Positions 24,303 through 46,552 of a stretch of 61,206 bases of DNA are shown here, piece after piece. A program made the translations under genes and the position numbers. Source of the stretch: Candidatus Woesearchaeota archaeon (lineage in GTDB: Archaea; Nanobdellota; Nanobdellia; Woesearchaeales; 21-14-0-10-32-9); contig JAIPET010000006.1 in the NCBI GenBank assembly GCA_021736975.1, positions 1-61,206 of the forward strand. The letters run 5' to 3'. The notes beneath the pieces are model-generated. The model did no database searches. It was given only the letters and a program-made list of their open reading frames with translations, and had not been told where the DNA came from. Each line of letters starts with the position of its first letter. The stretch's first letter is position 1.

Positions 24303-24419
24303 AGCCCCGTAGTGTAGCGGCCAATCATCCTGGCCTTTGGCAACGCAAGAGAATCTTGTTGGTTCTCAACGAGACGTTGAAGAAAGCCAGGGACCTCGGT
24401 TCAAATCCGGGCGGGGCTA
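24303..24419 (+). tRNA. tRNA-Gln (anticodon TTG) with a 44-base intron
   Basis: Acceptor AGCCCCG pairs with CGGGGCT and the discriminator is A (24419). The anticodon stem is CTGGC/GCCAG with loop C-T-TTG-G-A; the anticodon is 24337-24339. The intron (24341-24384) follows position 37, the usual archaeal site, and its ends form a CAACG/CGTTG helix compatible with a bulge-helix-bulge splice motif. The T arm is CTCGG TTCAAAT CCGGG. A TATA-like CTTTAAAAAG lies at about 24252-24261. The last 12 bases are repeated four times downstream as integration scars. Confidence 0.93.
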
Positions 24420-26821: not shown

Positions 26822-26866
26822 TTCCTCTCTTTTGACATTATTGTCCATGAGCTCGGGCGGGGCTAT
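26822..26866. repeat. Attachment-site copy 3 (right end of unit 2, left boundary of unit 3)
   Basis: CGGGCGGGGCTA at 26854-26865 is identical to the tRNA-Gln 3' end. The 45-base block matches copy 2 at 36 positions. The stop codon of the small gene of unit 3 (26866-26868) begins exactly one base after the core. Confidence 0.8.
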
Positions 26867-27086: not shown

Positions 27087-28334
27087 TTACGTTCTTTTTT
27101 CTATGATTACTGTGTATGGTTCCATTTCTTTGTATCTGCTTTCTAATTGTAGTGCTTTCATTACGTCCATCATTTGCTCCATTTTCCGGTCTTGGGCTTG
27201 TATCTGTTCTTGAAGTAATGTTATCTCGTTTCCTTTGTTGGCTATGTCTCTTTCTAGTTGGGTTTTGCTTACGTCTACATAGAGGTCTTCTTCTTCAATT
27301 GTGTCTCTCATTCCTAGAAGTTCTGTGTAGTAGTGTATCATTTCTGATTTTTTCCAGCCAAATCTGTATTTTAGAGCGGATTCTGATTTGTATCTTGGAA
27401 GCCAGTAGCACGCAGAACTGTGCCTGAAATCATACATAGTCAGACCATTTTTCGAGCAATTGTATAGCTTGCCATCTTTTCCTCTTTTTTGATAGAATTC
27501 CCCAAGTCCAAGTATTTTATTTCCTAATCTCTTTAAGTATTCATTTACTTGGTGATGATGCGTTGTGAATATGAATTGATCTGCTTTGAGTTTTTGAATT
27601 TTAATGAATTCTTTTAACATTGCTGAGCACAGGAGTAGTTTGATTCTTCTTCCAAATGTCTTGCTAGTTTCCGGTCTGATTGTTAGTGTGTAGTGTTTTT
27701 TTTCTTCGCTCCATTCTAAATCAGATACTTTGACGTTCATCATTTCTGTCGGAGCTCTTATTCCTGTGTCAAATAAGAACATCATGAGAACTCTGTATTC
27801 ATATTTTGCTTTGTTGCACATCTGATTAAGTTGTTCTATTGTGAAATAGTTGAAGTGTGGTTTCTCATCTCTTCCATCAATATCTTGAGTTATGTCTCTA
27901 ACTGTTATTCCTTCTTTTCTTTGTACTCTTTGGTACCAGTGCCACATTGATTTGAATGCTTTTATGAGCGTACCTACTCCTGTAAAGACTTCTCCTGTTT
28001 GTTTTCTTGTTTGTATCTGTCCATCTCTTAATTTTTTTATGAGCTGTAAGAATTCTCTTTCTTTTTGCTCTACTTCAGGAATGTAATCTATTCCAAGTTC
28101 GTCTTGAATTATTATTGCCCAAGAATGGATTTTTGATTTTAAGTTTCTTAATCGAATGTAAGATCTCGATCCTCTCTTTACGACAGGAGATACATTTGCC
28201 CCTATTTCCATATCATCAAGATACTGGAGCAATAACTCTCTATTCTTTGAAGAAACACCGTCAAACGGAGCTCCTTTCTCATATCTCCATTTCTTGTATG
28301 TTTCCTCATTTCGGTGAGGATCGAATTTAGCCAT
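27087..28334 (-). CDS. Tyrosine recombinase (integrase) of unit 3
   Basis: A 415-residue integrase. The catalytic domain has the first Arg in LFDTGIRAPTEMMNV (about residue 193), the H-x-x-R-like box YDFRHSSACYW (about 300), and the nucleophile Tyr in MIHYYTEL (about 333); the N-terminal part is a SAM-like/core-binding region. A coiled-coil tail follows. It would recombine the element with the tRNA-Gln 3' end. An in-frame ATG at 28391 exists, but the TATA box (28389-28399) overlaps that codon, so transcription would begin after it; the ATG at 28334 is preferred. Confidence 0.88.
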   Translation of the reverse strand: MAKFDPHRNEETYKKWRYEKGAPFDGVSSKNRELLLQYLDDMEIGANVSPVVKRGSRSYIRLRNLKSKIHSWAIIIQDELGIDYIPEVEQKEREFLQLIKKLRDGQIQTRKQTGEVFTGVGTLIKAFKSMWHWYQRVQRKEGITVRDITQDIDGRDEKPHFNYFTIEQLNQMCNKAKYEYRVLMMFLFDTGIRAPTEMMNVKVSDLEWSEEKKHYTLTIRPETSKTFGRRIKLLLCSAMLKEFIKIQKLKADQFIFTTHHHQVNEYLKRLGNKILGLGEFYQKRGKDGKLYNCSKNGLTMYDFRHSSACYWLPRYKSESALKYRFGWKKSEMIHYYTELLGMRDTIEEEDLYVDVSKTQLERDIANKGNEITLLQEQIQAQDRKMEQMMDVMKALQLESRYKEMEPYTVIIEKRT

Positions 28335-28388
28335 TTTTCGTTTAAAACCTCTCAAACACTCGAATTCTAACACTTCAGACGCTCCCTT

Positions 28389-28433
28389 CATTTATAAAGA
28401 GAGTCGTAGACGATTGGATATTTTCGAGTGGAC
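28389..28433 (-). promoter_or_regulatory. Recombinase promoter with conserved upstream element
   Basis: The minus-strand TATA box CTTTATAAATG (28389-28399) is preceded, 13 bases upstream, by a 21-base element at 28413-28433 containing ACTCGAAAATATCCAAT. The same element, with one mismatch and the same 13-base spacing to a TATA box, occurs at 47405-47425 in unit 4. It is longer than a normal BRE, so a specific regulator is likely. Confidence 0.75.
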
Positions 28434-28463
28434 AAGTCACCGACACCGTGTGATTAGTGACTT
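28434..28463. repeat. Inverted repeat upstream of the recombinase promoter
   Basis: AAGTCAC (28434-28440) and GTGACTT (28457-28463) form a perfect 7-base inverted repeat directly next to the conserved promoter element. It may be an operator or a terminator for the gene to the right; the strand is not determined. Confidence 0.45.
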
Positions 28464-28519
28464 ACAGAGAACTAAAGTTTGTGATAGAAGAATACATGAT
28501 GTCGGATTTTGTATTACCT

Positions 28520-29209: not shown

Positions 29210-29332
29210 ATTATTTAGAATATTGTTTTATATATAAAAAATAGTTGATTTTGTGTTACCATTTTTGTACCCTTTTTTATCCACTGTTTTGTAGCCTAAG
29301 TGTATTTCTCTTTTCTCAACCTTATGCTTTGT

Positions 29333-29467
29333 ATGGTTAAGACAAAGATGTTGATTCTCAGGATTACTGAGGAGCAGGACAAGAAATTAGATCGTCTTGC
29401 TAGTGAGATTTTTGTCAATAAATCAGAATATGTGCGGTTGAAATTGTTTAAGAAGAGTGGTGCGTAA
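29333..29467 (+). CDS. Ribbon-helix-helix DNA-binding protein (44 aa)
   Basis: Encodes MVKTKMLILRITEEQDKKLD and onward, 44 residues: an N-terminal beta ribbon (KMLILRITEEQ) followed by two helices (DKKLDRLASEI, NKSEYVRLKLFKK), the CopG/Arc-type ribbon-helix-helix. It likely acts as a dimeric repressor. ATG at 29324 is also in frame. Its stop overlaps the next gene's start (TAATG). Confidence 0.75.
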   Translation: MVKTKMLILRITEEQDKKLDRLASEIFVNKSEYVRLKLFKKSGA

Positions 29468-29655
29468 TGGATGAAGATTTTTCGATGCTTAGAGGAGAGA
29501 GAAGGAGTTTCTTTTGTCATAATAGGTTGTGGAAGGAACTTAAGAATCAGACGGGAGATTGTGTGTCTGTCTCGACGTATATTAAGCAGGCTATTTTGGA
29601 GAAGATGATTCGTGATGAGCCTGAGAAGAGGGAGTATTTTGAGGATTTGCGGTGA
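29467..29655 (+). CDS. Second ribbon-helix-helix-like small protein (62 aa)
   Basis: A 62-residue protein coupled by TAATG to the preceding RHH gene. 'RSFFCHNRLWKELKNQTGD' followed by VSVSTYIKQAILEKMIRDEP has the strand-helix-turn-helix layout of RHH proteins. The two tandem RHH proteins probably control element genes. Codon use is richer in G than in chromosomal neighbours. Confidence 0.6.
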   Translation: MDEDFSMLRGERRSFFCHNRLWKELKNQTGDCVSVSTYIKQAILEKMIRDEPEKREYFEDLR

Positions 29656-29732
29656 TTCCGTAATATTTCCGGTCATTTATATGTATATATTTATAAATGA
29701 TGGCGACTTTACTACTGTTAAGGTAACACAAA

Positions 29733-29846
29733 ATGACTAACGCCCAAATTTGGATAAGAACCAGAAATTTCTTTGATCTAGTTAGTCACATGACTCCCGA
29801 TAAACGAGGGAAACTCGTTAACAGATACTGCTTTGTCGACCAGTGA
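29733..29846 (+). CDS. Small hypothetical protein (37 aa)
   Basis: Encodes 37 residues starting MTNAQIWIRTRNFFDLV, basic. AAGGT lies 8 bases before the ATG and a TATA box (TATATTTATAAATG) at about 29684-29697 precedes it. Codon use is GC-richer than the chromosome. No family recognised; supported only by signals and composition. Confidence 0.45.
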   Translation: MTNAQIWIRTRNFFDLVSHMTPDKRGKLVNRYCFVDQ

Positions 29847-29947
29847 TTATGCACCAATTGGGGCGGACTGACTGACAAGGTTGGCTTGATTTTTTTGTTT
29901 TTGACAACGATACAACGCTAAAAAAACTGTACGGGGGTGGTTACCAC

Positions 29948-30208
29948 GTGATACAAACGAAACCTATTCGGACATCGGATAAAATAATCCGGGTCGAAGG
30001 GAAGGTCTTCTACAACGACCGTAGAAGACGAATAGATGTAAAGAAGCCTATTAGAGATCTCTTCGATGCGGGTGCCGATGTCAGATACGTTATGGAGCTA
30101 TGCTTATCTGAACTTAAGTTAGCTCAGCGTATAAAAGAATTAGGCGAAAAGAACGTAGTGCCAGTGCTGATGTACTTTGTGGAGGAGAGTGAAAATGCAA
30201 CCGAGTAA
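29948..30208 (+). CDS. Hypothetical basic protein upstream of TFB
   Basis: An 86-residue protein with GTG start, preceded by GGGGGTGG. It begins IQTKPIRTSDKIIRVEGKVF after the initiator; the first half is basic with a probable beta hairpin, the second half helical. The last 14 bases overlap the TFB gene, so they are co-translated and may act together in transcription. The GTGATACAAA start is the same as that of the small zinc protein at 37353-37514, suggesting element-specific initiation signals. No family recognised. Confidence 0.65.
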   Translation: MIQTKPIRTSDKIIRVEGKVFYNDRRRRIDVKKPIRDLFDAGADVRYVMELCLSELKLAQRIKELGEKNVVPVLMYFVEESENATE

Positions 30209-30983
30209 CTGTCCTGAATGCGGAAGCATAAATTTGCACATCAATCTGCAAGCTAGTGAGATAATTTGTAATGATTGCGGACTAGTTATTGAAGAAAATG
30301 GTATTGAGCAGAATCCATACGTTAGCGAGAGCACAAAGAAAAATGCAAGACTGCCACAATTAGCAACAGCAGGAAGCAAAGAAATAGATGGAAAAATATG
30401 GAAGAAATCATGGCTTCTTTCAACCAAAGAGAAGAACATGCGTTATGGTATGAGTCGCATCACAGCATTAGCTGGAAAACTGCACTTGCCAGAATTTGTA
30501 ACGCAAGAAGCCAAAGTCATATTCAAACAAGCAATGGATAAAGACTTAGCAATAGGCAGAGATATAATCAGCTTCAGCTATTCAAGTGTATATTCAGCAT
30601 GTATTATTCATAATCTTCCTAAGACTTTACTAGAAGTCATAGTGCACAGTTCAGTTAGAAAGACAAGATTGATGAGAGCATACAAAGTCCTAAGAAAAGA
30701 ACTATCTTTGATGATTCCAGTAGTTGATCCTATAGACTTGATTCCACGATTCGCATCAAAATTAGAATTAAGCCAATCAACCGTTACAAAAGCAAATGAG
30801 TTAGCAATGAAAATAAGCGAAGAAGGGTTACTTTCTGGAAAACGACCGGAGACAATTGTAGCTACAGCATTATACTTAGCTTCAAGAATGAATGAAGAAC
30901 CAAGAACGCAAAGAGATGTAGCAAACGCAGTAGGCGTGATAGAAGTTACTATAAGAAATTCTGCGAAGAAAGTTGTATTTTGA
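30195..30983 (+). CDS. tfb: Transcription initiation factor B (TFB), element-encoded
   Basis: A 262-residue TFIIB homologue: N-terminal zinc ribbon with Cys at residues 6, 9, 25 and 28 (CPEC...CNDC), a linker with IDGKIWKKSW, then two cyclin-like repeats ending in an HTH (QRDVANAVGVIEVTIRNSAK). TFB bridges TBP-bound promoters to RNA polymerase. It is shorter than chromosomal TFBs (about 300). The start at 30195 is supported by GGAGGAG 8 bases upstream. As an element-borne factor it may direct transcription from the element's own promoters. Confidence 0.9.
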   Translation: MQPSNCPECGSINLHINLQASEIICNDCGLVIEENGIEQNPYVSESTKKNARLPQLATAGSKEIDGKIWKKSWLLSTKEKNMRYGMSRITALAGKLHLPEFVTQEAKVIFKQAMDKDLAIGRDIISFSYSSVYSACIIHNLPKTLLEVIVHSSVRKTRLMRAYKVLRKELSLMIPVVDPIDLIPRFASKLELSQSTVTKANELAMKISEEGLLSGKRPETIVATALYLASRMNEEPRTQRDVANAVGVIEVTIRNSAKKVVF

Positions 30984-30987
30984 AAAG

Positions 30988-31029
30988 ACTTACCCTAAAT
31001 TAATTAATTCAGTTTAGGGTAAGTTTTTA
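30988..31029 (+). terminator. Hairpin terminator after TFB
   Basis: ACTTACCCTAAA (30988-30999) and TTTAGGGTAAGT (31013-31024) form a perfect 12-base stem followed by a run of T. A further direct copy of CTTACCCTAAAT lies at 31103-31114, so the arm sequence may also be a regulator's site. Confidence 0.6.
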
Positions 31030-31034
31030 ATTTC

Positions 31035-31116
31035 ATATATAAATCAGAGCTTACCGTTAATATTGGCTGTGATGCAAGAATCATGCAGTATTAGCCGAAA
31101 CGCTTACCCTAAATCT
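31035..31116 (+). ncRNA. Candidate small RNA between TFB and VirB4 genes
   Basis: A TATA box (ATATATAAAT, 31035-31044) with no frame downstream; transcription would start near 31065 at a hairpin made by GGCT/AGCC (31065-31068 with 31093-31096) and TGCA/TGCA (31073-31076 with 31084-31087). The predicted RNA carries CTTACCCTAAAT, complementary to the right arm of the TFB terminator. Weak evidence. Confidence 0.3.
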
Positions 31117-31128
31117 GCCCGTAGTTAA

Positions 31129-34092
31129 TCACTTGAATTGTTGTTGTATAAAGTCTTGTATTTGTGTTCTTACTATGATTGGGATCTGCTGTGCTATTCT
31201 TTCATATTTTCTTCTATCTTGACTGTCTATTAAAAATATTATTGTGTTGTCTCCGTATTCTTTTTTGACTCTTTCAAATTTTTCTATAAGTCTTGTTCTA
31301 TGCTTTGAGAAGTCGATGCCTGTCTCGACTTCGATTGCTGTCTCATTTCCTTTCTTGTTTTTGAAAATGATGTCTGCTTTTGTTGTAATTTTTACTTCTA
31401 CTTTTTTTGTGTATTTCTTTATTTCTTCAGCGATGTTGTGTACGAAGAATGTGTGTTCTATTCCTTCAACATCATTCTTTTTTACCCAGATTGTTTCTTG
31501 TCTTGTTTTTCCGATTGGCATGAGGTTTTGTACTTCGTATCCGTTGTTTAGTAATTCGTTATGTTGATATTCATCTAGGGTGCTTGCATAATAGTATGGC
31601 TTTTCGAAATTTAGTTTTGATTCTTTTTCTTCCTTTTCTTTTTTGTTGTTGGTTTGTTTTAGAATTTCATCAGCGTTGGTTGTGATGATGCTGTGCTCCT
31701 TTGGGCTTGCTACTACTTCTAGTTCTTGGTGTTCGTTGTCTAGTATTAGTATTCCTTTTCCTTGTGTGGCTGTCAGTAAGTATTCTTTTTCCATCTGGCT
31801 AAGGTTGAATGTTTTTACTACGCTGTCAATTACTGCAGGCTTTTGTCTAAGTAATAGAGAGTATGAGCTGTTAGCAAGTACTGCGTGTCCTGCTCTGCTG
31901 TTTACTAAGTCTGCCACGTCTTGTGTGATTAATAATAGTCCTAGGTTGAATTTTCTGCATGTTTTTACAATTTCAAAGATGTAGCTTGCTTCTTCTGCAT
32001 GTCCCAGTAGGCTCCAAGCTTCATCTATGATGAGGAGTTTTCTTTGTTTGGTCTGCTTCATCTTCATGTAGATATAGTCAAGTATGAGGAACATGACGAG
32101 TGGTTTGACTTGTTTTGGCATGTCGCCTATGTTGAAGCATACGAAGTTGTTATCGAAGTTTATGTTGGTTGGTTTGTTGAGGAAACCAAAGACTCCTTTG
32201 GTGTACATGTAAAGCCTGTTGAGTATTGCTCTGTATGTTATTTTCTCCATGCTACTCGCTTTTTTGTCCATAGCTTCGAGTTCTTTGTAGAGGTCTCCGA
32301 GGATTGGTGCCTGTTTATCCTTGTAATTATTGGCTGTTATTTTCTTTTTCTTGTATGTTTTTGTTATGGCTTTGTCAAGGATGCTTTTTTGTATTTCTGA
32401 TAAGTCTCCAAACATTATCTTGAACATGTCCATTAATGCGAGCCTTTTTTCTATATAGTCGTGTCCCATGAGATCCAGTGGATTGATAATTGTTTCAGAT
32501 TCCCTGCTTATTGTTACAAGTTCTCCTTTTACTTGATCAGTTAGCCCTAAATATTCTGCTTGTGGGTCTATAACCATTACTTGTGTGTTGTTTAATAGTT
32601 GCCTTGAGATGAGAAGTTTTGTGAAGTAGCTTTTTCCTGATCCGCTTGTTGCAAGGACTACGCCGTTAGCGTTGCTTAGGGCGTATATGTCTTTGATGTA
32701 CGGGACTTTATTCTTATTCAAGCCCAACATTACCCCTTCAGGCTCGACCGTCAGGAAAGGGCTTGTAAACGGGAAAAATGCAGATAATGCTTGTGTCGTA
32801 ATGTTTCTCTTTATTTGTAATTCATCCTTTGCTACTGGGACTAGTGATTTGTAGCCTTGTACTTGTCTAAACATTGGCACACTTGGTATTATCATCAGGC
32901 TGTTTAGTTCTGCCTCTACTTTCTTTGTAAGGAGATTGAGTTCTTCTTTTGATTTGGCTTTGCAATTTATATATAATGAAACGTTGAATAATTTTTCATT
33001 TCCTTTTTGTAGATTTTCAAGAACTTTTAATGTATCTTTGTATTTTATTTCTAGGCTTGGATTTATTGATTGTTTCTTTTGTTCTGCGTATAAGTCTCCT
33101 CTTTGTTTCTGGAGTTCCTTGTTTAACGAGATCATCATAAGCTCAATTGGGAAAGGTTCCATATGTATGCTGATATCAAAGTCGTCATTACTGCTGATTA
33201 TTTTATCAAGAAATCCAGACTCTACCATTCTTGGATATCCAACAGCACTTACTATTCTGCAATGTTTGTCGTTGATAATTACTGAGTCAACAGCATCTTT
33301 TATTGTATTTGGTGCAATGATGTATTGCATCCCGCTACATTTTATTTTTCCTTTAGTTTCCTTCTTTTTTCCATCGTTGAAAAAAAGATTGAGTGTTTTA
33401 ATTATGTTCTTGTCGTTTAATCTTGTTACTTTTAGACCTATCCCTTCTAATCTTTCTTTACATACATCGCATTGTATTTGCAAATCTGTCTTTTTTGGGA
33501 TGACGAGATAGAAGTTTCTATTTCTCATTTCATTTTGTTCTATGTTGTTTTTCATGAATTTAGAAAAGTCTTTGAATTGCTCGTTGTTGTCTGTTCTTTT
33601 CTTTAAGCTTTTCAAATATTCATCAATGTTCAAACTATTTGTTGTAACAACAAATTGTACAGGGAAATCTAATCCATTCAGAAATTTTTGGAAGCCATAT
33701 ATTATTGCTTCTTTCTCGTCCTTTGTCTTTATGCTAAAATTAAGGGGAGTTACTTGTAGTATTGCAACGTCTGTGTGGCTATGAATTATGTTGTCTTTTA
33801 CTTGTTTTATGTTTACAAGAGAGTTCATTGCTCTATCATTAAGCCGTGTACTTCTGAATCGAAAGAAATATGCTATGTGTTTTAGCCAACTTCCAAAATC
33901 AAAAAATATGAATAATATTCCAATCATTCCAGGAATGCTTGCAAGGATGAATTTTGCTACTATTGATATGTTTAGCTTGAAAATAAAAATAAGGATAAAT
34001 ATGAAAAGACAAGCCCAACCTATCTGTGAGAATGTTAATCCGAAGATAATCTTTTCTTTGTGTTGGAGCTGTTGGGGAATTTCATAAGCCAT
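31129..34092 (-). CDS. virB4: VirB4-family conjugation ATPase with PrgI-like membrane N-terminus and nuclease-like C-terminus
   Basis: A 987-residue protein. Residues about 15-85 carry two membrane helices like PrgI (MAYEIPQQLQHKEKIIFGLT). The ATPase core has Walker A SGSGKSYFTK (about 482) and Walker B KLLIIDEAWSLLG (about 685) with the VirB4/TraC order. The last 150 residues contain ADIIFKNKKGNETAIEVETG, a D...E-x-E pattern resembling PD-(D/E)XK or replication-relaxation folds. VirB4 powers type IV secretion and pilus assembly at the membrane. The PrgI fusion is known in archaea; the added nuclease-like tail is unusual and could supply the missing DNA-processing activity. Confidence 0.88.
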   Translation of the reverse strand: MAYEIPQQLQHKEKIIFGLTFSQIGWACLFIFILIFIFKLNISIVAKFILASIPGMIGILFIFFDFGSWLKHIAYFFRFRSTRLNDRAMNSLVNIKQVKDNIIHSHTDVAILQVTPLNFSIKTKDEKEAIIYGFQKFLNGLDFPVQFVVTTNSLNIDEYLKSLKKRTDNNEQFKDFSKFMKNNIEQNEMRNRNFYLVIPKKTDLQIQCDVCKERLEGIGLKVTRLNDKNIIKTLNLFFNDGKKKETKGKIKCSGMQYIIAPNTIKDAVDSVIINDKHCRIVSAVGYPRMVESGFLDKIISSNDDFDISIHMEPFPIELMMISLNKELQKQRGDLYAEQKKQSINPSLEIKYKDTLKVLENLQKGNEKLFNVSLYINCKAKSKEELNLLTKKVEAELNSLMIIPSVPMFRQVQGYKSLVPVAKDELQIKRNITTQALSAFFPFTSPFLTVEPEGVMLGLNKNKVPYIKDIYALSNANGVVLATSGSGKSYFTKLLISRQLLNNTQVMVIDPQAEYLGLTDQVKGELVTISRESETIINPLDLMGHDYIEKRLALMDMFKIMFGDLSEIQKSILDKAITKTYKKKKITANNYKDKQAPILGDLYKELEAMDKKASSMEKITYRAILNRLYMYTKGVFGFLNKPTNINFDNNFVCFNIGDMPKQVKPLVMFLILDYIYMKMKQTKQRKLLIIDEAWSLLGHAEEASYIFEIVKTCRKFNLGLLLITQDVADLVNSRAGHAVLANSSYSLLLRQKPAVIDSVVKTFNLSQMEKEYLLTATQGKGILILDNEHQELEVVASPKEHSIITTNADEILKQTNNKKEKEEKESKLNFEKPYYYASTLDEYQHNELLNNGYEVQNLMPIGKTRQETIWVKKNDVEGIEHTFFVHNIAEEIKKYTKKVEVKITTKADIIFKNKKGNETAIEVETGIDFSKHRTRLIEKFERVKKEYGDNTIIFLIDSQDRRKYERIAQQIPIIVRTQIQDFIQQQFK

Positions 34093-34188
34093 GTGGTGAT
34101 ATTCAGGCTCTCATCGTTTAAATACGGATGTCGGACAAACAAATCTAAAAAAGAATATTATTTAAAGACTTAAAAGTAATGTGTTAAT

Positions 34189-35064
34189 ATGGATTTATTT
34201 GATAAGACATTCAAGGATCACGATATTTTTACCCTGTATTATAATCCTCTGGATCAAGATGGTGTTGCACAGTCTCAAATTCTAGAAATTATTAAACCTT
34301 ATCCTAACTTAATAAAAACGTTTGGAGAAGAGTTTACAAATAAATTGACGAGTATAGGTAATAATGTTTTACATTTACAACGATTGGGCTCAATTGAGTC
34401 TTCTTTAGATTTATTCAAAGATGCAGAAGGATTTAATAAAATAATTGATAATGTTCGTAAATTAGTACCTTATATTGTGAAAACCAATCTTGATAGTACT
34501 CAGTTCGATATTTATTTTAAACAACTTTTAAGATACTTTTCTGAGCTTTCTTTTCCCCAGTATGTTCATTCTGTATCTGGTTGCGGAATCTCATTCCAAC
34601 CTCGAGATATTGGGAACGGACTTCGTTCATGTGATAATTTATTTAATTATCTTGGTTCACAAATTGGAGTGGAAATAACAACTATATCTACAGATAATAA
34701 GAATAGTCTACCTTTAAAAATTCAGAATATATTTGAAAACAAAGCACAAGAACAAATATCCAATCATGATGGAATATTGTTAATAGATATTTCTTTATCT
34801 TGTAAACAAATTTTTGAAATAGAAACTAGAAAGTTTAAAGTCGAGTTTACTAATATTGATTATATTGCAGAACTTTGTAGAAAAGAATTAGACAAAGAAG
34901 AGAATAGCCATTTGCTTGGTGTTGTAGTTCTTGCTAATGTCTTAGTTACAAAAGATTCAAAAGCAGGAATTTCTTGGTCTATGCGAGTTTTAGAAAATGT
35001 TAATAACTCTAAAAGTGATATGTTGCCTAAATTATTATCTAAGCAAGCATCCCGATGTACTTAA
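34189..35064 (+). CDS. Hypothetical protein
   Basis: A 291-residue soluble protein not recognised. It lies divergent from virB4 and overlaps the tail of the VirB6-like gene by 26 bases, so it interrupts the secretion cluster. Its base composition is more AT-rich than the flanking secretion genes, suggesting later insertion as cargo. Possible catalytic residues are not clear; 'NHDGILLIDISLSCKQ' resembles a buried beta strand with acidic ends. A TATA box at 34157-34168 gives a leaderless start. Confidence 0.65.
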   Translation: MDLFDKTFKDHDIFTLYYNPLDQDGVAQSQILEIIKPYPNLIKTFGEEFTNKLTSIGNNVLHLQRLGSIESSLDLFKDAEGFNKIIDNVRKLVPYIVKTNLDSTQFDIYFKQLLRYFSELSFPQYVHSVSGCGISFQPRDIGNGLRSCDNLFNYLGSQIGVEITTISTDNKNSLPLKIQNIFENKAQEQISNHDGILLIDISLSCKQIFEIETRKFKVEFTNIDYIAELCRKELDKEENSHLLGVVVLANVLVTKDSKAGISWSMRVLENVNNSKSDMLPKLLSKQASRCT

Positions 35065-37036
35065 TTACTTGTGCTAGTTCTGCTCCTCCGTTTCCTCCTC
35101 CGAATACTGATTTGAATATTTGTTTTATTATGATTATTATGAATATGATGTTTATTATTGAGAAGCAAGCTATCATGACCATAATTTTTACGTTTTCAAA
35201 TATTGGTAGTTCTACTAGCATTGAGCATCCGAGTATTATTATGCTGTAGATGAATGTTATGAATATGAATGAGCCTAGCATGTGCAGTATTAGTTTTCCA
35301 TAGCTTTTTAGTGGTGGTACGAAGTAGCAGAATATTCCTACTGGCATGAAGATTACTCCGAAGGATACTATGAGATATCTGATTAGTAGAAAGAGTAATG
35401 TGATAAGGAGTGTTATTGCGTAGAGTGTTACAAATAGGAATTCTAGTCCTAGGTTTGCGAGGTTGTCTGCTGTTAGTAGGAAGAATTGTTCGTTTACCAT
35501 TGAGAGGACTGCTGAGGTCATTACTGCTCCTATTTCTAATATGAGTTTGTAGAGATAGAATGATGCTTGTATGAGTACTATCATAATGACTGTGTTTCTT
35601 AGCCATTCTTTTGCTATTTCTCTTTTGATGATGTTGTGTCCTGATATGAGGAATTGTAGTCCTGAGTAGAGGAATAGTAGTCCGTAGAAGAGGCTTATGC
35701 AGTAGACCATTATTGCCCATATTCCTTGGAATATTTCTATTGATGGTGCATTTTCCATTAGTGATCTGATGCTCGAGAGTAGTGGTTGTAAGGGAGCGTT
35801 GAGCATATCTATGAAGAAGCCGTATATTTTTTCGGGGATGCATGTTGCTAGGTTTGTTAGTCCGCATTCTTCTGCACTTACACTGGGAATAAAGAGTAAT
35901 AAGAGCAGTACGGGGATTATTGCTTTTCCCCATGTCTTTTTAATTCCAATGTAAAATAACCACAGCACGAATACAAATATAGCAATCACAAAGAGAAAGT
36001 TCCAGCTACTTGAGAATGATTGTGTCTGGAATTCTGTGGCATTTATTTCTTGTAGATTGTATGTGCATTCTTTTTCTTCTGTTTCAAAGAAGTTATTGTA
36101 TTTTACTGTGCATGTGTTTTCATTCTTTACTGTGATTGTGTTTTGGTTGAGGAATAAATTTCTTGATTCTTTTGCTGTGCTATTTATCGCTCTAAGTGTT
36201 AGAAAGTAATATGGTTTCTTTGTGAATACTGCGTCGTATGTGTAGAATAGTTCTTTGTAGAATGAATTGTCAAAAAGTATTTCTATGTTGTTTTGTGTGT
36301 TGTTTTTTTCTCCGATGATGTTTTGGTTGTAGATGTGTTTGACTTCAAAGTCTGGTTCTATTGGTTCCTGGTAGTTTATGACGTTGAATGTGTCTTCTAC
36401 TGTGAGTGTGTTTGTGTTGTATTCTGTGTGGTCGTAGTCGCAGTCCCATCCGTGATCGTAGCCCCATTCATAATATCTTTCTCGTACAGTTATGCTTGCT
36501 GTGTAGACTCCTCTAAAAGTAACTGGTTTGCTTATGACGAATGTTGCTGTTTTTTGATTTGATAGATATTGCTCGTTTGCATAAATCTTCAGATTGTCTG
36601 AACTTGAATGGTAATAGTATTTTATCTGGCAAGTTCTTCCTCTCTTCTTTTTGCTATTGTAATATGTGTCTGGAATTGTGTATTCAAAATGATATTCTGA
36701 CCTTAGCGTAAACGTTGAGGGGACGAGCAACTGTTCTTCGTAAAGTATTGACGGTGATGCTGTGAGAAATGTGAACCACATATTTTTGAGATTTCCAGAA
36801 GATTTGGGAATTGTTCCTTCAGGAGCATTGTTAACTTGAATGTTATTATTATATTGATTTATGAATTGATGATTGGGACTTGATGTGTTTGTATAGATAA
36901 GATTTGCAATGAGGCTTTCATTATACTCATTTAATGCAAGACATTCTGTTTGGTCTTGAAAGTAAGAACAATCAAAAGCTAAAGCTACGCTAGGTAACAA
37001 TAATAAAAATAAAAAAAATATTTTTAGTTGTTTCAT
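35039..37036 (-). CDS. VirB6/TrbL-like polytopic membrane protein with exported N-terminal domain
   Basis: A 665-residue protein: signal peptide (MKQLKIFFLFLLLLPSVALA), a large exported region of about 310 residues rich in beta and aromatic residues, then a C-terminal part with about eight hydrophobic segments, including a second signal-like stretch ending VSAEEC and a block with 'LFLYSGLQFLISGH' typical of VirB6/TrbL-type channel proteins. It is translationally coupled (ATGA) to the pilin gene. The ATG at 37036 is preferred because it begins the signal peptide. It would form the membrane channel of the secretion system. Confidence 0.78.
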   Translation of the reverse strand: MKQLKIFFLFLLLLPSVALAFDCSYFQDQTECLALNEYNESLIANLIYTNTSSPNHQFINQYNNNIQVNNAPEGTIPKSSGNLKNMWFTFLTASPSILYEEQLLVPSTFTLRSEYHFEYTIPDTYYNSKKKRGRTCQIKYYYHSSSDNLKIYANEQYLSNQKTATFVISKPVTFRGVYTASITVRERYYEWGYDHGWDCDYDHTEYNTNTLTVEDTFNVINYQEPIEPDFEVKHIYNQNIIGEKNNTQNNIEILFDNSFYKELFYTYDAVFTKKPYYFLTLRAINSTAKESRNLFLNQNTITVKNENTCTVKYNNFFETEEKECTYNLQEINATEFQTQSFSSSWNFLFVIAIFVFVLWLFYIGIKKTWGKAIIPVLLLLLFIPSVSAEECGLTNLATCIPEKIYGFFIDMLNAPLQPLLSSIRSLMENAPSIEIFQGIWAIMVYCISLFYGLLFLYSGLQFLISGHNIIKREIAKEWLRNTVIMIVLIQASFYLYKLILEIGAVMTSAVLSMVNEQFFLLTADNLANLGLEFLFVTLYAITLLITLLFLLIRYLIVSFGVIFMPVGIFCYFVPPLKSYGKLILHMLGSFIFITFIYSIIILGCSMLVELPIFENVKIMVMIACFSIINIIFIIIIIKQIFKSVFGGGNGGAELAQVIKYIGMLA

Positions 37037-37356
37037 CCTGTCAGGAACCCCACAACTAATGGTGCAACCCAAATTATGACAAGTCCAATAACGATGTACA
37101 TCGCCATTGATTTGGCTTGCTCCCTCTTTGCCTGATCATTAGCACTCGTAATGAAAAGCACACCGGCAAATATCAAGAACAGCACAGCAAGAACTGTAGC
37201 CGCATATTTGACGAAGTTATAAATCTTCATTACTGGCTCCAAGATCTGATCAAAGGTCTCTTGGTCTTCTTCGCTAATCTCTCCTCCAAAATCTGCCGCC
37301 GCAACAATCATAGGGGTCAGCAACAGGAGCAATGCTAGCACTGCAAACAATTTCAT
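37033..37356 (-). CDS. TrbC/VirB2-like pilin protein
   Basis: A 107-residue protein: signal peptide (about 1-20, ending VAAA), a short acidic stretch (ISEEDQETFDQILEP) and two membrane helices separated by a short basic loop (DQAKREQAKSM), the layout of TrbC/VirB2-type pilins. It is coupled by ATGA to both the upstream zinc protein and the downstream VirB6-like gene. Probably the main component of the conjugation pilus. Confidence 0.82.
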   Translation of the reverse strand: MKLFAVLALLLLLTPMIVAAADFGGEISEEDQETFDQILEPVMKIYNFVKYAATVLAVLFLIFAGVLFITSANDQAKREQAKSMAMYIVIGLVIIWVAPLVVGFLTG

Positions 37357-37514
37357 TTTGGTACCACCTCCGGTCTTTTTGAGTGGGTTTTAGCGTACGC
37401 CTCGAGGCTTCCGTACTTCCACTCGATAAAAGCAATACAAGAAGAGCACAGCGTTCCTTCGCCCATTTCAAGGGGTTTTCCGCATAAATCACAAGTAGCT
37501 TCGATTTGTATCAC
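37353..37514 (-). CDS. Small zinc-ribbon-like protein heading the pilin operon (53 aa)
   Basis: Encodes 53 residues with GTG start (37512-37514): CDLCGKPLEMGEGTLCSSC forms a C-x2-C...C-x2-C zinc site, followed by a helix. The stop overlaps the pilin ATG (ATGA). A longer frame on the same strand (37274-37492) covers this place but has no Cys pattern or overlap logic and is judged a shadow. Function unknown; it may be a regulator of the operon. Confidence 0.7.
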   Translation of the reverse strand: MIQIEATCDLCGKPLEMGEGTLCSSCIAFIEWKYGSLEAYAKTHSKRPEVVPK

Positions 37515-37545
37515 CTTAACAGACCAAAGGCTGGCATAGAAAATA

Positions 37546-37595: not shown

Positions 37596-37613
37596 GTTGT
37601 ATCTAAGGATTTT

Positions 37614-40368: not shown

Positions 40369-41814
40369 ATGCTTACAAAATCAAAATATATGGCTGGCTT
40401 GAAATGTAACCGTTATCTTTGGTTTATGGATAGAAAACAGCTTCCTGAGATTTCTCTTTCTGATAAGCATAAGTTTGCTCAAGGTCATGAGTTTGAGAAA
40501 TATGTTTATAAATTGTATTCTGATGCTGTGAATCTTGCGGATATGGATTTTCAGAAGAATTTAGATAGGACTAAATCTGCTATTGAACAAAGAAAAGTTA
40601 TCTTTGAAGCTGGCTTTAAGGTTGATGATTATTTTGTTCGTGTTGATGTTCTTGAACCTAATGGTGATGGTTGGGATATTTATGAAATTAAATCTAGCAC
40701 TGAAGTGAAGAAGGAGCATATTCCTGATTTGGCTTTTCAGAAGTGGATTTGTGAAAAAGCTGGATTGAAGATAAAGCGATGTTTTGTCTATTTCTTGAAC
40801 AAAGAATTCGTTAAAGATGGAGAAATTAATCCTGATGAATTAATCAACAAAGAAGAAGTTACTGAAAAAGTTGAATTAGAGACAGATGTTGAGAAAAATG
40901 CATTAGCATCCTTAAGAATAATTGGAGCTGATGCTACCCCGCCAATAACTATTTCGCAGAGTTGTAATAATCCTCATGAATGTCCCTTGAAAAAAGCTTG
41001 CTGGGGAACATTGCCTGAAAATAACGTATTACACTTGACCAATTGGAGAACATACTGGAAGTTATTTGCTGAAGGCATAGAAGACATAAAAGACATCCCT
41101 CGTGGAACTAAACTTTCAGATAAAGATGAAGTTATCAAAGAATCAGTTGAAAAGAACAAAGTTTTCGTTTCTAAAGAACATATTAAACACTTCTTGAATT
41201 CACTGCATTATCCCTTATATCATTTTGATTTTGAAACGATAGATACCGCAGTGCCTATATTTGATAAATCAAGACCTTATCAGAAAATAGCGTTTCAGTA
41301 TTCATTACATATTGAGCAAGAAGATGGAAAAACTGAGCATAGAGAATTTTTGCACAATAGATCTGATGATCCAAGACCTAAACTTCTTGAACAAATGAAA
41401 GAAAATCTAAAGGGGACAGGAGATATTATTGTATTTAACAAGTCCTTTGAAATAAGTGTTATGAGAAAACTAGCAGAAGATTTTCCAGAACACGCTGATT
41501 GGCTACAATTAGCAATTGATAGAATTGTCGACCTAGCAGACCCATTCAGAGCATTCTACTACTACAATCCTTCACAAAAAGGCTCATATTCAATCAAGAA
41601 AGTGCTTCCAGCAATTACAGGAAAAAGCTATGCAGAACTAGAGATAAATAAAGGTGGAGATGCAAGCATGCTTTATTTTTACAGCCACATTTATCCCGAA
41701 ATCAAAGAAAAGGATAAAATCAGAGCAAACCTATTTAAATATTGTAACTTAGATACAGAAGGAATGGTTTGGATTTTGCAGAAGTTAAAAGATGTTATTG
41801 AGGTTAGTAAATAA
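40369..41814 (+). CDS. DUF2779 protein with Cas4-like nuclease N-terminus
   Basis: A 481-residue protein. The N-terminal half resembles Cas4/PD-(D/E)XK nucleases (FAQGHEFEKYVYKLYSD, VRVDVLEPNGDGWDIYEIKS with a D...E-x-K pattern and Cys in SCNNPHECPLKKAC, possible Fe-S or zinc ligands). The C-terminal half is DUF2779, with RNase H-like acidic residues (YHFDFETIDTAVP, CNLDTEGMVW). It probably degrades or processes nucleic acid. It overlaps the next gene by one base (TAATG) and so belongs to the same operon as the ABC-3C-like genes. A TATA box (TATTTATAAACT) lies at about 40337-40348. Confidence 0.8.
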   Translation: MLTKSKYMAGLKCNRYLWFMDRKQLPEISLSDKHKFAQGHEFEKYVYKLYSDAVNLADMDFQKNLDRTKSAIEQRKVIFEAGFKVDDYFVRVDVLEPNGDGWDIYEIKSSTEVKKEHIPDLAFQKWICEKAGLKIKRCFVYFLNKEFVKDGEINPDELINKEEVTEKVELETDVEKNALASLRIIGADATPPITISQSCNNPHECPLKKACWGTLPENNVLHLTNWRTYWKLFAEGIEDIKDIPRGTKLSDKDEVIKESVEKNKVFVSKEHIKHFLNSLHYPLYHFDFETIDTAVPIFDKSRPYQKIAFQYSLHIEQEDGKTEHREFLHNRSDDPRPKLLEQMKENLKGTGDIIVFNKSFEISVMRKLAEDFPEHADWLQLAIDRIVDLADPFRAFYYYNPSQKGSYSIKKVLPAITGKSYAELEINKGGDASMLYFYSHIYPEIKEKDKIRANLFKYCNLDTEGMVWILQKLKDVIEVSK

Positions 41815-42956
41815 TGAATTTAGAAGCAACCGAGCCGAGAGAACAGTCAGGTTCTAAAACACAAGTAAGATATGATTATCAAAGAGATTTCTGTTGTAAC
41901 AAATGTATAGAACTTCTAGACAATGAAGAATTGAAAAAAGTATATTGTGAATTTCATAGTGATTGCGTTACAGAAGATAATAGAGGGAATCAGACATTTT
42001 ATCAAGTTAAAGGTCTTAAGAATAAACTTGTTGCAATAACTGATTTTATCGATGCTCTTAAAGATTTATACGATTGTTTTGTTAAATCAGAAGGCAAGTC
42101 ACAGTGTGTAATGGTTACAAATGCTCAAAGAAATAGAGATATTAAGAGATTTTTTGATGCTAGAACACACATTAGAGAAGGTGTGGCAACTGAAAAAGAA
42201 AAATTAACTTACTCCGAGTTTGCTCAAACTATCAAAAAAAAACTAGGAAGCCCGGAAAACTACTTTGATGGGTTTATGGAAAGAATTGAACTGATGGACG
42301 AATCACCTACTTTTTCAGAAGAAGGAAAAAAGAAAAATAATACTTTGAAAGAACTCAATTTATTACAGTTAAAAACAGTTCTAGATAAAAGATTAAACCA
42401 GAATTTTGATGTAAAGGATGTTGAACTAATTTATGAAATCATTTATCAACTGGTAAAAGATAAATCTACTGTAAGTGAACGTATCAACAGATTTGTTATT
42501 GCGAAGCACATATTAGAAAAAATTCAACTTCCTGCTTTTCAAAGAGTGTATTTTGAAACAAATCACAATCAAGAAGAGGTCGATAAACTAAAAGACCAAA
42601 GTATATTAGAAGGAAAATTAGAGAAAGGAGGCTTTAGCTCTATTTTCATAAAAAATGCTAAAATTGTAAGATATGTAACAAAATTTTTCCGAGAAAAAGC
42701 ATCAAAATTTAAAAGTCAGAAAACCATAATTGATGATTTTGAATTTAGATTAGTAAATGCTTGCTCTGATGTCTTTGAAGAAAATATGCGAAAAAAGGAT
42801 TTTAATTCTTATGAAATGTTAAAAGAACTAGAACAAAAATTGACCGATATAGCCAGAGACGGGAAATATGCTTCTTTGAATATTGAACCTGAGTTTGTTA
42901 GGGGCTTAATCTGGGAAGCAACAAGCCAGTGTAAATTTAGGTGGGACTGTGAATAA
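41814..42956 (+). CDS. DUF4297/Cap4-type dsDNA endonuclease, effector of an ABC-3C-like system
   Basis: A 380-residue protein. The N-terminal domain follows the DUF4297 pattern: RYDYQRDFCCNKCIELLD, VYCEFHSDC (E46, D50) and FYQVKG (Q64, K66), a PD-(D/E)XK-like centre used by Cap4 endonucleases. The C-terminal half is helical. In ABC-three-component systems such a nuclease is the effector, held by a middle component and an SMC-like ATPase; the next two genes fit these roles and all overlap or abut. Nuclease activity and defence role are inferred. Confidence 0.78.
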   Translation: MNLEATEPREQSGSKTQVRYDYQRDFCCNKCIELLDNEELKKVYCEFHSDCVTEDNRGNQTFYQVKGLKNKLVAITDFIDALKDLYDCFVKSEGKSQCVMVTNAQRNRDIKRFFDARTHIREGVATEKEKLTYSEFAQTIKKKLGSPENYFDGFMERIELMDESPTFSEEGKKKNNTLKELNLLQLKTVLDKRLNQNFDVKDVELIYEIIYQLVKDKSTVSERINRFVIAKHILEKIQLPAFQRVYFETNHNQEEVDKLKDQSILEGKLEKGGFSSIFIKNAKIVRYVTKFFREKASKFKSQKTIIDDFEFRLVNACSDVFEENMRKKDFNSYEMLKELEQKLTDIARDGKYASLNIEPEFVRGLIWEATSQCKFRWDCE

Positions 42957-43524
42957 TAAAATTGAACAAGGAATTCAAGAATTTATTAAAGATCTGATAA
43001 AAGAAAATAAAGTTCCGACCATAGATAGTACTGAAGATAGAAGTTTCTCTCCAGATACAGAAGTTGAATTTAATTCGTTAAGAATATTGGCTCTACTTGA
43101 ATATAGTGGGGTAAATGGCAAGATTGATTCAAAATTAAAATTTGCCTTCTTTGATTTTTTAATTAGATTCCCTATTTGTTTAAAATATATATTAGATAAA
43201 AATCAAGAATCAACCAATTTTGAACAATCTGAATTGACTTCAATTGATAAAAAAATGGTTAGGCATATTAGCAGTGCGTGGGATCCTGATTATTATAATT
43301 ACATTGCATTTTTGGATTCTAGAAATTTAGTAAACACTGATTTTGAAAACAAGTTTTCTGTAGAGATAACTTCAGAAGGTAAAGAAATAATTAAAAACTT
43401 TGAATCAGAAATATTGATTAAATGGAAAGAACGATGCAAACTTTTAAAGAAAATCTACGGGAGCAAAAGCGACCAAATACTTCAAAAAGCGATAAATGAA
43501 CATTTTGCGTTTACGGTGATATGA
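42949..43524 (+). CDS. Middle component-like protein of an ABC-3C-like system
   Basis: A 191-residue helical protein with a winged-helix-like layout (FNSLRILALLEYSGVNGKI near residues 40-58 and SVEITSEGKEIIKNF later). By position between nuclease and ATPase it fits the 'middle component' of ABC-3C systems, which bridges effector and ATPase. GTG start at 42949 overlaps the upstream stop by 8 bases. The assignment is mainly contextual. Confidence 0.6.
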   Translation: MNNKIEQGIQEFIKDLIKENKVPTIDSTEDRSFSPDTEVEFNSLRILALLEYSGVNGKIDSKLKFAFFDFLIRFPICLKYILDKNQESTNFEQSELTSIDKKMVRHISSAWDPDYYNYIAFLDSRNLVNTDFENKFSVEITSEGKEIIKNFESEILIKWKERCKLLKKIYGSKSDQILQKAINEHFAFTVI

Positions 43525-45408
43525 TTGGAAAACTACATACTTATCAACAGAATTAGAGTAGTGGGAAAGAAAACATGCGACTACAAGCTGGTTTCTGGAT
43601 TAAATATATTTATGGGCTCTAATTCTACAGGTAAGACAACATTAATGTGGTTAGTGGACTTCATATTTGGATGTAAAAATAAAGAGTTTATTCCCGCTGT
43701 TGAAAAGAACTGTTCAGAAGTTGTTGTCGATTTAACAATAAATGAAACAAAATATACTATTATTAGAAATATCGCCAATAAAAATCTTATTGATGTCTAC
43801 GAGAATCATTATGCTTCAATTGAAGAATTAAAGTCTCAGGAATCTGTTAAATATGGCTTTAAAGCAAGTAACGAAAGACCTGCAATTAGTGATTTTTATC
43901 TTGAAAAATTAGATGTCATTCAAAGAGAAGTTCCAGTAACTAACACAAAAACTGCTAATTTTTCTTGGAGAAATCTCGTGAGTTTAATTTATGTTCCTCA
44001 AGATAAATGGAATGGAATTCAAGCAGAGAATGAATTTCAACCTCTTATGAAAAAATCAGTTTTTGAAATTCTATTAGATATTAATAATGATAAAATAGAA
44101 GAGCTTGAGTTTGATATTCGAAAACTGAATGAGTTTAAAGAGGAACAAAGAACCTTATTGAAAACAATTGAAATAATTCTTAAGAAAAAGGACACTCTTC
44201 TCGGTTCTGATATAAGTTTAGCATCCTTAAAAGGCAAAATAAAAGAATTGCAGCAGGAGAAAAAAGAATTACATAATAATTTAGAAGTAAAAAAAGAGTC
44301 GGAAGAATTGGTAAAAGAAAAGAATATTCTTCAGAAAGAAATATTTGAATTGAATCGAAACCTTCACGAATTAAATGAGCGATTAGACGAATTAAATATG
44401 CTTAAAAGCGAGAATGATCTAAACCTCGCAAAAAACAGATTATTGTTAAAAGCGAGGAAAGTTTTCTCAGAAATTCCCATTACAAAATGTCCAAAATGTT
44501 TTAATGAAGTAACAGATAATAATTCTTCAGATAATTGTTCAATATGTGGAAATGAATATCAATCAGTTGCTGTAGATCAAGAATATGCAAGAAATTTATT
44601 TTTGTTGATGGATGAACAAAAAGAAATTTCTAAGTTATTGAGTTCGCTCCAGAATGAAATTGAAGAACTGGATGTTAAAATTAAGAATATGTCAAAAACA
44701 AAAATAGATTTAGAAAATGAGATTACACGGATAAATAAAGAAATAATATTCCCTGTTTTACAAAAAATCGAGAATATTAACTCTGCTTTAAACACACACA
44801 ACAAATCATTAGGTGAAGCTGAACAAATAAATTCACTTATTAAAGATTTACAATATGCTAAAGATGCTGAAAAACAAGCACAAGAAGATATAAGAACAAA
44901 ACAAAAAGAACTGAATGAAGTGAAGAAAGAAGAAAATTTTGCAGTTAAAGTGAAAGATGAGTTTACTACAATTTTCAAATCAGTACTTGAGACTGTTCTA
45001 TTTTTACCTGATAAAGTAAAAGGATTAAATGAATTATATCTGCCTGAGTTTGAAGATAATAACCCTTTGAATAGAATTGGAAAAGAAGATATTGACAAAA
45101 GCAAAGCAGCTAAAGTGGTGTTGGCTTATTACACAACTATTTTGGAGTTTGCATTAAAATATGGTGGAAAACACCCAAAATTGTTGATGCTCGATACACC
45201 AAGACAGGACGAGTTAGATATGAGCGTCTTTGCTAATATTTTAAACTATTGGGATGGTCTAAAAAAATATAAAAAAGAATATCAAATAATTATAACTGGT
45301 TCCGAATTTCCTGAAGCATCTCCTATTAAAGAATTAATAATTGAAAAATTTCACAGTCAAGAATCTTCAGGAGACATGTCTAAACCAGATAGATTCAGCA
45401 TAATGTGA
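43525..45408 (+). CDS. SMC/Rad50-like ATPase of an ABC-3C-like system
   Basis: A 627-residue ABC ATPase: Walker A GSNSTGKTT (31-39), coiled-coil arms, a zinc-hook-like CPKC...CSIC (about 322-340) and a C-terminal Walker B LLMLDTPRQDE (about 552) with the divergent 'TPRQ' that distinguishes ABC-3C ATPases from Rad50. It probably senses invader DNA or RNA and releases the nuclease effector. TTG start at 43525 directly follows the previous stop, with GGTGAT upstream. Confidence 0.83.
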   Translation: MENYILINRIRVVGKKTCDYKLVSGLNIFMGSNSTGKTTLMWLVDFIFGCKNKEFIPAVEKNCSEVVVDLTINETKYTIIRNIANKNLIDVYENHYASIEELKSQESVKYGFKASNERPAISDFYLEKLDVIQREVPVTNTKTANFSWRNLVSLIYVPQDKWNGIQAENEFQPLMKKSVFEILLDINNDKIEELEFDIRKLNEFKEEQRTLLKTIEIILKKKDTLLGSDISLASLKGKIKELQQEKKELHNNLEVKKESEELVKEKNILQKEIFELNRNLHELNERLDELNMLKSENDLNLAKNRLLLKARKVFSEIPITKCPKCFNEVTDNNSSDNCSICGNEYQSVAVDQEYARNLFLLMDEQKEISKLLSSLQNEIEELDVKIKNMSKTKIDLENEITRINKEIIFPVLQKIENINSALNTHNKSLGEAEQINSLIKDLQYAKDAEKQAQEDIRTKQKELNEVKKEENFAVKVKDEFTTIFKSVLETVLFLPDKVKGLNELYLPEFEDNNPLNRIGKEDIDKSKAAKVVLAYYTTILEFALKYGGKHPKLLMLDTPRQDELDMSVFANILNYWDGLKKYKKEYQIIITGSEFPEASPIKELIIEKFHSQESSGDMSKPDRFSIM

Positions 45409-45410
45409 TT

Positions 45411-46118
45411 TTATATTCTTTTTAATGAAATAGCATGGTATATTTTATCTAAGTCACACCCTAAGAAATTCCTTCCTGTTTCTTTGCATGCTACTGCTGT
45501 GCTACCAACACCCATGAACGGATCAAGCACAATATCTCCCCTATTACTTGCTATTTCTATGAGCTTCCTTAGTATGCTTAATGGCTTTTGGGTAGGGTGG
45601 ACTGCTTTGTGGTTTTCATCCCTGAGTCTTTCTTTTCCTTGCAATGCAGAAGTAATCAGGGTGTTGTGCATTTCTTTATGTCCTTGGAAATTGAATGTGA
45701 CTTGACCGGGCTTGGTTTCAGGGTCATTTATTGCGTAGAGGATGTATTCATTGGCAAAGACAAAGTTAGTTTTGCTGAGCCTTGGAGCAGGGTTGGTCTT
45801 GCACCATACTAAGAGGTTCCTAAAAAACCAGTTTTGCTTGAATATCGCCATATACTGCGGTATCTGCTCGGTACTGCAGAAGACGAATATTTGTCCCTTT
45901 GGCTTGAGAACTCGCTTGAGCTCCGCCATAACGGGCTCAGGATCAAAGCCAAAGTCCCATTCCCCGAAGTTTTTCACAATATTGAGATTACCGTACTTAA
46001 TGTTGGCTTTCTGAGAGACATTATAAGGAGGATCTGTCACCACAAGGTCGACACTGTTATCAGGCAGGGTTTTCAGGTATTCAAGACAATCCATACATTT
46101 TATCGTATTTAGTTCCAT
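45411..46118 (-). CDS. DNA adenine-N6/cytosine-N4 methyltransferase (beta class)
   Basis: A 235-residue methyltransferase with motif IV TDPPYN (28-33) near the N-terminus and the SAM motif LDPFMGVGSTAVA near the C-terminus, the beta-class order, plus HPTQKPL. It resembles DpnA/MboIB-type enzymes, a class that often modifies GATC and can accompany Sau3AI/DpnII-type systems. It is a candidate second protective methyltransferase of the Sau3AI-type system or an orphan. It ends three bases after the ATPase gene on the other strand. Confidence 0.9.
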   Translation of the reverse strand: MELNTIKCMDCLEYLKTLPDNSVDLVVTDPPYNVSQKANIKYGNLNIVKNFGEWDFGFDPEPVMAELKRVLKPKGQIFVFCSTEQIPQYMAIFKQNWFFRNLLVWCKTNPAPRLSKTNFVFANEYILYAINDPETKPGQVTFNFQGHKEMHNTLITSALQGKERLRDENHKAVHPTQKPLSILRKLIEIASNRGDIVLDPFMGVGSTAVACKETGRNFLGCDLDKIYHAISLKRI

Positions 46119-46500: not shown

Positions 46501-46552
46501 GGAGTCCACTAGAATCGCACGAATGGGTGCCCGTCGGGCGGGGCTATTATTT
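46501..46552. repeat. Attachment-site copy 4 (right end of unit 3)
   Basis: CGGGCGGGGCTA at 46535-46546 is identical to the tRNA-Gln 3' end. The preceding GGAGTCCACTAG and the following TTATTT also occur around copy 5 (55136-55186), with one single-base gap. So units 3 and 4 share a right-end type, different from that of units 1 and 2. Confidence 0.82.

Follow-up and report, generated by a model that had tools for sequence, protein, structure and literature searches.

Comparison with Described Systems

Recognisable relaxases are missing from archaeal conjugative plasmids and ICEs (PMC9905601; PMC6563490), and the same sources acknowledge as unsolved how such elements produce the DNA that is transferred. 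The Ced/Ted DNA importers have a minimal pilin-VirB6-VirB4 set and no relaxase, and a NurA-HerA nuclease-motor pair has been proposed to make their substrate (PMC9905601). Thaumarchaeal ICEs (PMC6563490) are integrated VirB4 elements with TFIIB genes, without a relaxase found and usually with VirD4. Among bacteria, the MPF-FATA VirB4 proteins of Firmicutes and Mycoplasma ICEs (CD1110/Mbov_0397) have a PrgI-type N-terminus and are encoded with a Mbov_0395-family pilin, with pilin and VirB6-like genes upstream. The T4SS of Patescibacteria comprise MPF-FATA-like VirB4 and VirB2 pilins, mostly lack a relaxase, rarely have a T4CP nearby and are viewed as co-opted for other functions (PMC12102498).

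The window analysed here, meaning the whole stretch of DNA, is 61,206 nt long (Candidatus Woesearchaeota archaeon, GCA_021736975.1, contig JAIPET010000006.1, positions 1 to 61,206). It carries a minimal archaeal T4SS element, which is a known kind; what appears to be new in it is a VirB4 with a nuclease-type tail. The VirB4 ORF resembles the MPF-FATA proteins in its core and PrgI-type N-terminus, its pilin falls in the Mbov_0395 family, and its pilin and VirB6-like genes likewise lie upstream. It is 987 aa long, compared with 622 aa for the annotated Pontibacillus relative. The gene set and the missing relaxase recall Ced/Ted; unlike in those systems, the nuclease domain is PD-(D/E)XK-like and covalently joined to VirB4 (a HerA-superfamily motor), and the locus is mobile. 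The element shares TFIIB and the lack of a recognisable relaxase with thaumarchaeal ICEs but not their VirD4, and differs from the Patescibacteria systems in the att-bounded elements and the nuclease domain. No VirB4-nuclease fusion was met in the passages of PMC6563490 consulted, and a limited search of the open-access literature, with subscription papers and preprints outside its scope, returned no published account of one.

We propose, with a probability of roughly 55%, that the nuclease-tailed VirB4 is the motor of a minimal T4SS whose C-terminal domain would process element DNA for transfer, substituting for relaxase and VirD4.

Boundaries and Gene Content of the Element

The features that define the element, apart from VirB4 itself, are as follows.

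24303..24419, + strand: tRNA gene, Gln-like, with a 44-nt intron, the integration target (Rfam tRNA, E = 5.9e-7; ARAGORN intron option)
26854..26865, + strand: att copy at the left end, CGGGCGGGGCTA, equal to the last 12 nt of the tRNA (whole-genome motif search)
27087..28391, - strand: tyrosine integrase of the element (PF00589, 8.3e-8)
30177..30983, + strand: TFIIB paralogue (PF00382, 8.9e-36)
35039..37072, - strand: VirB6-like polytopic membrane protein (putative, from position and hydrophobicity)
37033..37356, - strand: VirB2-type pilin (PF18895 T4SS_pilin, 1.4e-13; NF045849 Mbov_0395 pilin, 8e-8)
37506-38984, + strand: cargo, Sau3AI-family restriction enzyme (NF040973, 4e-140)
38986-40230, - strand: cargo, C5 methylase (PF00145, 4e-67)
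40369..46118: cargo, DUF2779/Cas4-like protein, Cap4-like nuclease, ABC-3C-like middle component, SMC-like ATPase and N6/N4 methylase
46535..46546, + strand: att copy at the right end of the T4SS element (whole-genome motif search)

The 12-mer CGGGCGGGGCTA occurs exactly four times in the genome, always on the + strand of this contig (24408, 26854, 46535 and 55169), and the copy at 24408 is the 3' end of the intron-containing tRNA gene. The reversed pattern had 0 copies in the genome, and the shuffled expectation in the window was 0. The four copies are tandem att sites, and the T4SS element extends from 26854 to 46546 (19.7 kb). ARAGORN labels the tRNA anticodon 'Stop(tta)' owing to an uncertain splice site; we infer that the gene encodes tRNA-Gln. 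In a related element (genome G034) the integrase adjoins a tRNA-Gln of near-identical sequence, and in four other VirB4 loci the integrase gene directly follows tRNA-Asp.

The same 12-nt repeat bounds two flanking segments, one of 2.4 kb (24408-26865) with MNT-like nucleotidyltransferase genes and no integrase, the other of 8.6 kb (46535-55180). Together with the T4SS element they represent tandem accretion at one tRNA. A 49-nt repeat with 82% identity lies beside the integrase start (28387-28435) and in the next tandem segment (47379-47427), where no integrase was detected. It was rejected as the att site, as the integrase would then fall outside the element; the 12-nt tRNA-end repeat was preferred because it encloses the integrase and has only four genome copies. 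Comparison with an empty site within the same genus or family yielded no usable match.

Homologues of the integrase (cluster CL3) were found in 6 other VirB4 loci. A Hypoth_ymh protein is encoded between the integrase and the TFIIB paralogue, the latter having counterparts in 3 elements closely related to this one. The VirB6-like protein had no Pfam match; its gene lies directly upstream of VirB4, an arrangement conserved in relatives, and its putative identity follows from its position between pilin and VirB4 and its hydrophobicity. Across related elements, the recurring core consists of pilin, VirB6 and VirB4 with the C-terminal domain, and the cargo is often restriction-modification. A 291-aa orphan ORF (34189-35064) lies on the opposite strand within the T4SS operon; it had no family match and was not found in related elements.

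Architecture of the VirB4 Fusion

The VirB4 gene is divided as follows.

31129..34092, - strand: PrgI/VirB3-VirB4-nuclease fusion (profiles, split-gene relatives, structure matches)
31615..31770, - strand: linker between the ATPase and the nuclease domain, about residues 775-826 (low pLDDT, variable length)
31132..31614, - strand: C-terminal PD-(D/E)XK-type domain, residues 827-987, 161 aa (AF2, PDB matches, conservation)

The reading frame is intact, without interruption. Its VirB4 region (about residues 106-800) matched PF19044 (7e-27) and two models of MPF-FATA type, NF045975 (3e-103, below the cut-off of 590 bits) and NF045971 (6e-100, above the cut-off of 325 bits), both of which stop at or before residue 803. 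The Walker A motif GSGKS (residues 484-488) and the DE pair (690-691) are intact. R388 TrwK/VirB4 (E = 1e-23) and Thermoanaerobacter VirB4 were the top PDB matches of the full-length AF2 model.

The N-terminal part, up to about residue 105, is PrgI/VirB3-like and includes TM-like segments at 14-68. The match to PF12666 was weak (E = 0.0024, below cut-off); the assignment is supported because residues 1-105 form a separate upstream ORF in three relatives (L014, L015 and L023). Profiles, PDB matches and split genes thus bear out the first-pass annotation, made from the sequence alone, in its description of a VirB4 ATPase with a PrgI-like N-terminus. Between the ATPase and the C-terminal domain, pLDDT falls below 50 at residues 775-823 in the AF2 model and the length varies between homologues, so this linker is probably flexible.

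Fold and Conserved Residues of the C-Terminal Domain

The same annotation had described a C-terminal extension of about 150 residues with a D...E-x-E pattern. The extension measures 161 aa and includes D907 and A-I-E921-V-E923-T-G925. All 71 distinct domain sequences share H880, D907, E921, E923 and G925 without exception, which makes a chance pattern untenable. K938 was conserved in 96% and Y963 in 99% of these sequences, and E876 in 93% of the fused copies.

Structure prediction and fold search of the C-terminus, which the annotation had called for, gave a confident model (AF2, alignment with 20 homologues, mean pLDDT 95). The predicted order of elements, a-b-b-b-a-b, is that of the PD-(D/E)XK core; D907 falls where the second core strand begins, and E921-x-E923 where the third one ends. 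Foldseek and VIA searches of the PDB were led mostly by PD-(D/E)XK proteins (EndoMS/NucS, VC1899, Can2/Card1, N.BspD6I, Ecl18kI, EcoRII, Mus81/XPF and Hjc), each match being weak by itself, with no Foldseek E under 0.001 and a best VIA Z of 8.1. Matches in a viral structure library were to restriction enzymes, endonuclease I and VRR-NUC. Because single scores are modest, the assignment draws on numerous concordant matches, on the order of helices and strands and on residue conservation; together they predict a PD-(D/E)XK nuclease-type fold. When the domain profile was run against PDB sequences, the only matches were chance ones, to ubiquitin and the like.

The annotation had offered a replication-relaxation domain as an alternative fold, and this part found no support. 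PF13814 gave no match to the domain in a scan of 21 domain members and none in this genome, nor any match over the cut-off in 279 genomes. The nearest recognisable family, by weak sequence similarity, appears to be CoiA_nuc (PF06054), matched by 10 of the 21 members (best 4.6e-5), of which one exceeded the gathering score (L044, 23.9 against 20.3 bits) and the others fell below it. In that Pfam scan the domain from the window had no CoiA_nuc match and no clear Pfam name. Other weak profile matches among the members were to BamHI, Hjc, AHJR-like and pPIWI_RE_REase. The likeness to CoiA_nuc, EndoMS/NucS, Can2/Card1, Hjc and BamHI lies in the predicted fold and the position of the D...E-x site. 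What sets the domain apart is the E-x-E-T-G motif together with an upstream His that never varies and a Lys conserved on the next helix, as well as its attachment to either VirB4 or a membrane anchor.

The place of the usual (D/E)-x-K lysine is taken by the invariant E923. Migration of the lysine onto the next helix is known in the PD-(D/E)XK superfamily, and K938, which lies on the next helix, is a possible migrated catalytic lysine. With glutamate at the catalytic lysine position and VirD4 absent, the domain could be a dead nuclease fold that binds DNA only and brings it to VirB4, so replacing the coupling protein and not the relaxase. We regard this as improbable: D, E, E and H in all 71 sequences, with K938 at 96%, exceed the needs of DNA binding, and BamHI has E-x-E in place of (D/E)-x-K and is yet active. 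Judged from these residues, the domain is likely catalytically competent.

Distribution of the Fusion

A survey of such fusions, likewise suggested beforehand, showed that the domain is a regular part of this VirB4 group. An NF045971 profile search of 371 genomes of the same phylum recovered 34 VirB4 genes at E below 1e-75. The domain was present in frame in 31 of them, which is every complete close VirB4 gene; the remaining three (G076, G173 and G335) sit at contig ends, with G076 checked. Only distant or broken VirB4 genes were without it (G043, G121, G279 and G233). Related records carry the labels Woesearchaeota, Pacearchaeota and Nanoarchaeota. Two more, labelled Cloacimonadota and Babeliales, share the Tobar sample with a Woesearchaeota record; they are probably misbinned. 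A tblastn search of a plasmid collection with the domain gave no match, and among viral contigs 17 motif matches were obtained, 0 of which were confirmed as the domain.

Relaxase and Coupling Protein

The first-pass annotation had noted an element without relaxase or VirD4, and neither was recognised within the att bounds in Pfam scans that covered almost every ORF there (a 115-aa ORF at 46140-46487 being left out). Two outcomes named beforehand as contrary to its proposal, a fold unrelated to nucleases and a relaxase gene in the element, did not appear. A highly diverged protein could escape these scans and the search across genomes, which used one Pfam family each. Across genomes, the relaxase family PF03432 was absent in 20 of 20 VirB4-bearing genomes, and the VirD4 family PF02534 was absent in 17 of 20, this genome among them. 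The PF02534 matches in the 20 genomes numbered three, all marginal, and two fell within ORFs of more than 4200 aa.

Two giant ORFs, of 4617 aa (G240:C31, L109) and 4204 aa (G142:C9, L111), have a VirD4-like ATPase match and resemble the giant VirB4-type proteins of nanohaloarchaea that PMC10266531 discusses.

Gene content suggests that the element transfers, and the minimal gene set would also fit Ced/Ted DNA importers. Like this element, Ced/Ted systems combine pilin, VirB6 and VirB4 and have neither relaxase nor VirD4 (PMC9905601), and the similarity to CoiA_nuc is weak but repeated. The machine might then be an importer in which the nuclease, placed like CoiA-type competence proteins, trims incoming DNA to single strands. 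However, Ced/Ted are domesticated cellular systems, whereas this VirB4 belongs to a mobile element that has att boundaries and cargo, and small T4SS-less elements have the domain beside an integrase. These points make import processing quite unlikely. The proposed role in processing element DNA for transfer, for its part, has against it that no oriT was identified.

Stand-Alone Copies of the Domain

Stand-alone copies of the domain were closely associated with integrases. A tyrosine integrase gene was present within the 7-kb neighbourhood in 18 of 20 loci (identity confirmed as PF00589 in eight of the 18) and missing in two; it was usually the adjacent gene, several times overlapping. One or more TM-like segments precede the domain in 20 of 22 stand-alone proteins, so that these proteins would be membrane-held, like the VirB4 form.

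Several of these loci lie in tRNA-targeted elements that have no T4SS. The gene order is tRNA, integrase, anchored domain in L128 and L130, with L128 continuing into a type I restriction-modification system, and in L129 the integrase and the anchored domain follow 23 bp copied from a tRNA end. In L131, a complete element of 6.1 kb is bounded by tRNA-Thr and by 17 bp that repeat the tRNA-Thr 3' end; it has no T4SS, and apart from the integrase and the domain protein no enzymes are evident in it. VirB4 was found in 8 of 20 genomes with stand-alone copies versus 27 of 351 genomes (Fisher's test, p = 1.6e-4).

A tree of the 71 domain sequences requires at least eight well-supported changes between fused and stand-alone forms, and it contains sister pairs such as L013/L075, which lie inside a single genome. 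By this tree, the two forms interconvert repeatedly. Derivation of the stand-alone copies as debris of broken VirB4 genes was rejected for most of them, as an anchor-plus-domain protein next to an integrase gene was met repeatedly in different families; for L028 and L030, debris is the probable origin. L049 and L083 extend past the ends of their contigs.

A membrane-held nuclease could also serve exclusion or defence, degrading DNA that enters the envelope so that the resident element blocks competing elements or viruses. The anchoring of the stand-alone copies, the invariant active site and the presence of the domain in many integrated elements with restriction-modification and other defence cargo are in keeping with this. 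Left unexplained are the joining of the domain to VirB4 in every complete close gene surveyed and its tight coupling to integrase genes, several of which overlap it; moreover, T4SS exclusion factors are not known to be nucleases. We consider exclusion or defence unlikely.

Proposed Role in DNA Transfer

In bacteria, self-transmissible ICEs carry a relaxase plus a T4SS, and mobilizable IMEs carry a relaxase alone. The distribution of the domain, fused to the motor in T4SS elements and on its own in T4SS-less ones, resembles that of relaxases in these elements, and for this reason we favour a DNA-processing role in transfer. Since the elements are without a recognised relaxase or coupling protein, the domain is the best candidate for a relaxase substitute. 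The suggestion in the first-pass annotation that it could take over nicking or recognition is consistent with the comparative genomic evidence, namely the fusion to the motor, the integrase association and the stand-alone copies in T4SS-less tRNA-targeted elements.

Under the proposed mechanism, the ORF would be the motor of a minimal T4SS (pilin, VirB6 and VirB3-VirB4) on a tRNA-integrating element of a DPANN archaeon. The VirB3/VirB4 membrane assembly would hold the nuclease domain at the cytoplasmic mouth of the channel via the flexible linker. After excision of the element by the integrase, the domain would cut or nick element DNA at the channel base, using D907, E921, E923, probably K938, and metal, and the VirB4 motor would then drive the cut DNA through the channel. 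One polypeptide would thus do the work of relaxase plus VirD4 in bacteria. In T4SS-less elements, the domain on its own membrane anchor beside the integrase would fit mobilization in trans. A wider proposal, that an archaeal element family replaced relaxase and coupling protein with a PD-(D/E)XK domain and that T4SS-less elements hijack the machine, is conceivable and put forward tentatively, at somewhat under even odds.

A conserved nuclease-type domain joined to a translocation motor, and found also beside the integrase in T4SS-less elements, offers a concrete candidate for how archaeal elements prepare their substrate. If correct, the proposal would describe a relaxase-independent mechanism of conjugation and mobilization. 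Horizontal gene transfer in DPANN archaea has received little study, and the survey delineates an ICE/IME-like mobilome for these organisms.

A Recurring DPANN Cassette

One arrangement recurred in DPANN genomes (L089, 44-3576; L100, 190-3734; L103, L090, L095, L104, L106 and L107). A minimal integrase gene (about 170-200 aa) overlaps or abuts a gene for the membrane-anchored nuclease domain, and the pair faces a second tyrosine recombinase (about 250 aa). A reverse transcriptase (RVT_1) is often near, accompanied in L089 by HTH_40, and the cassette is possibly linked to diversity-generating retroelements.
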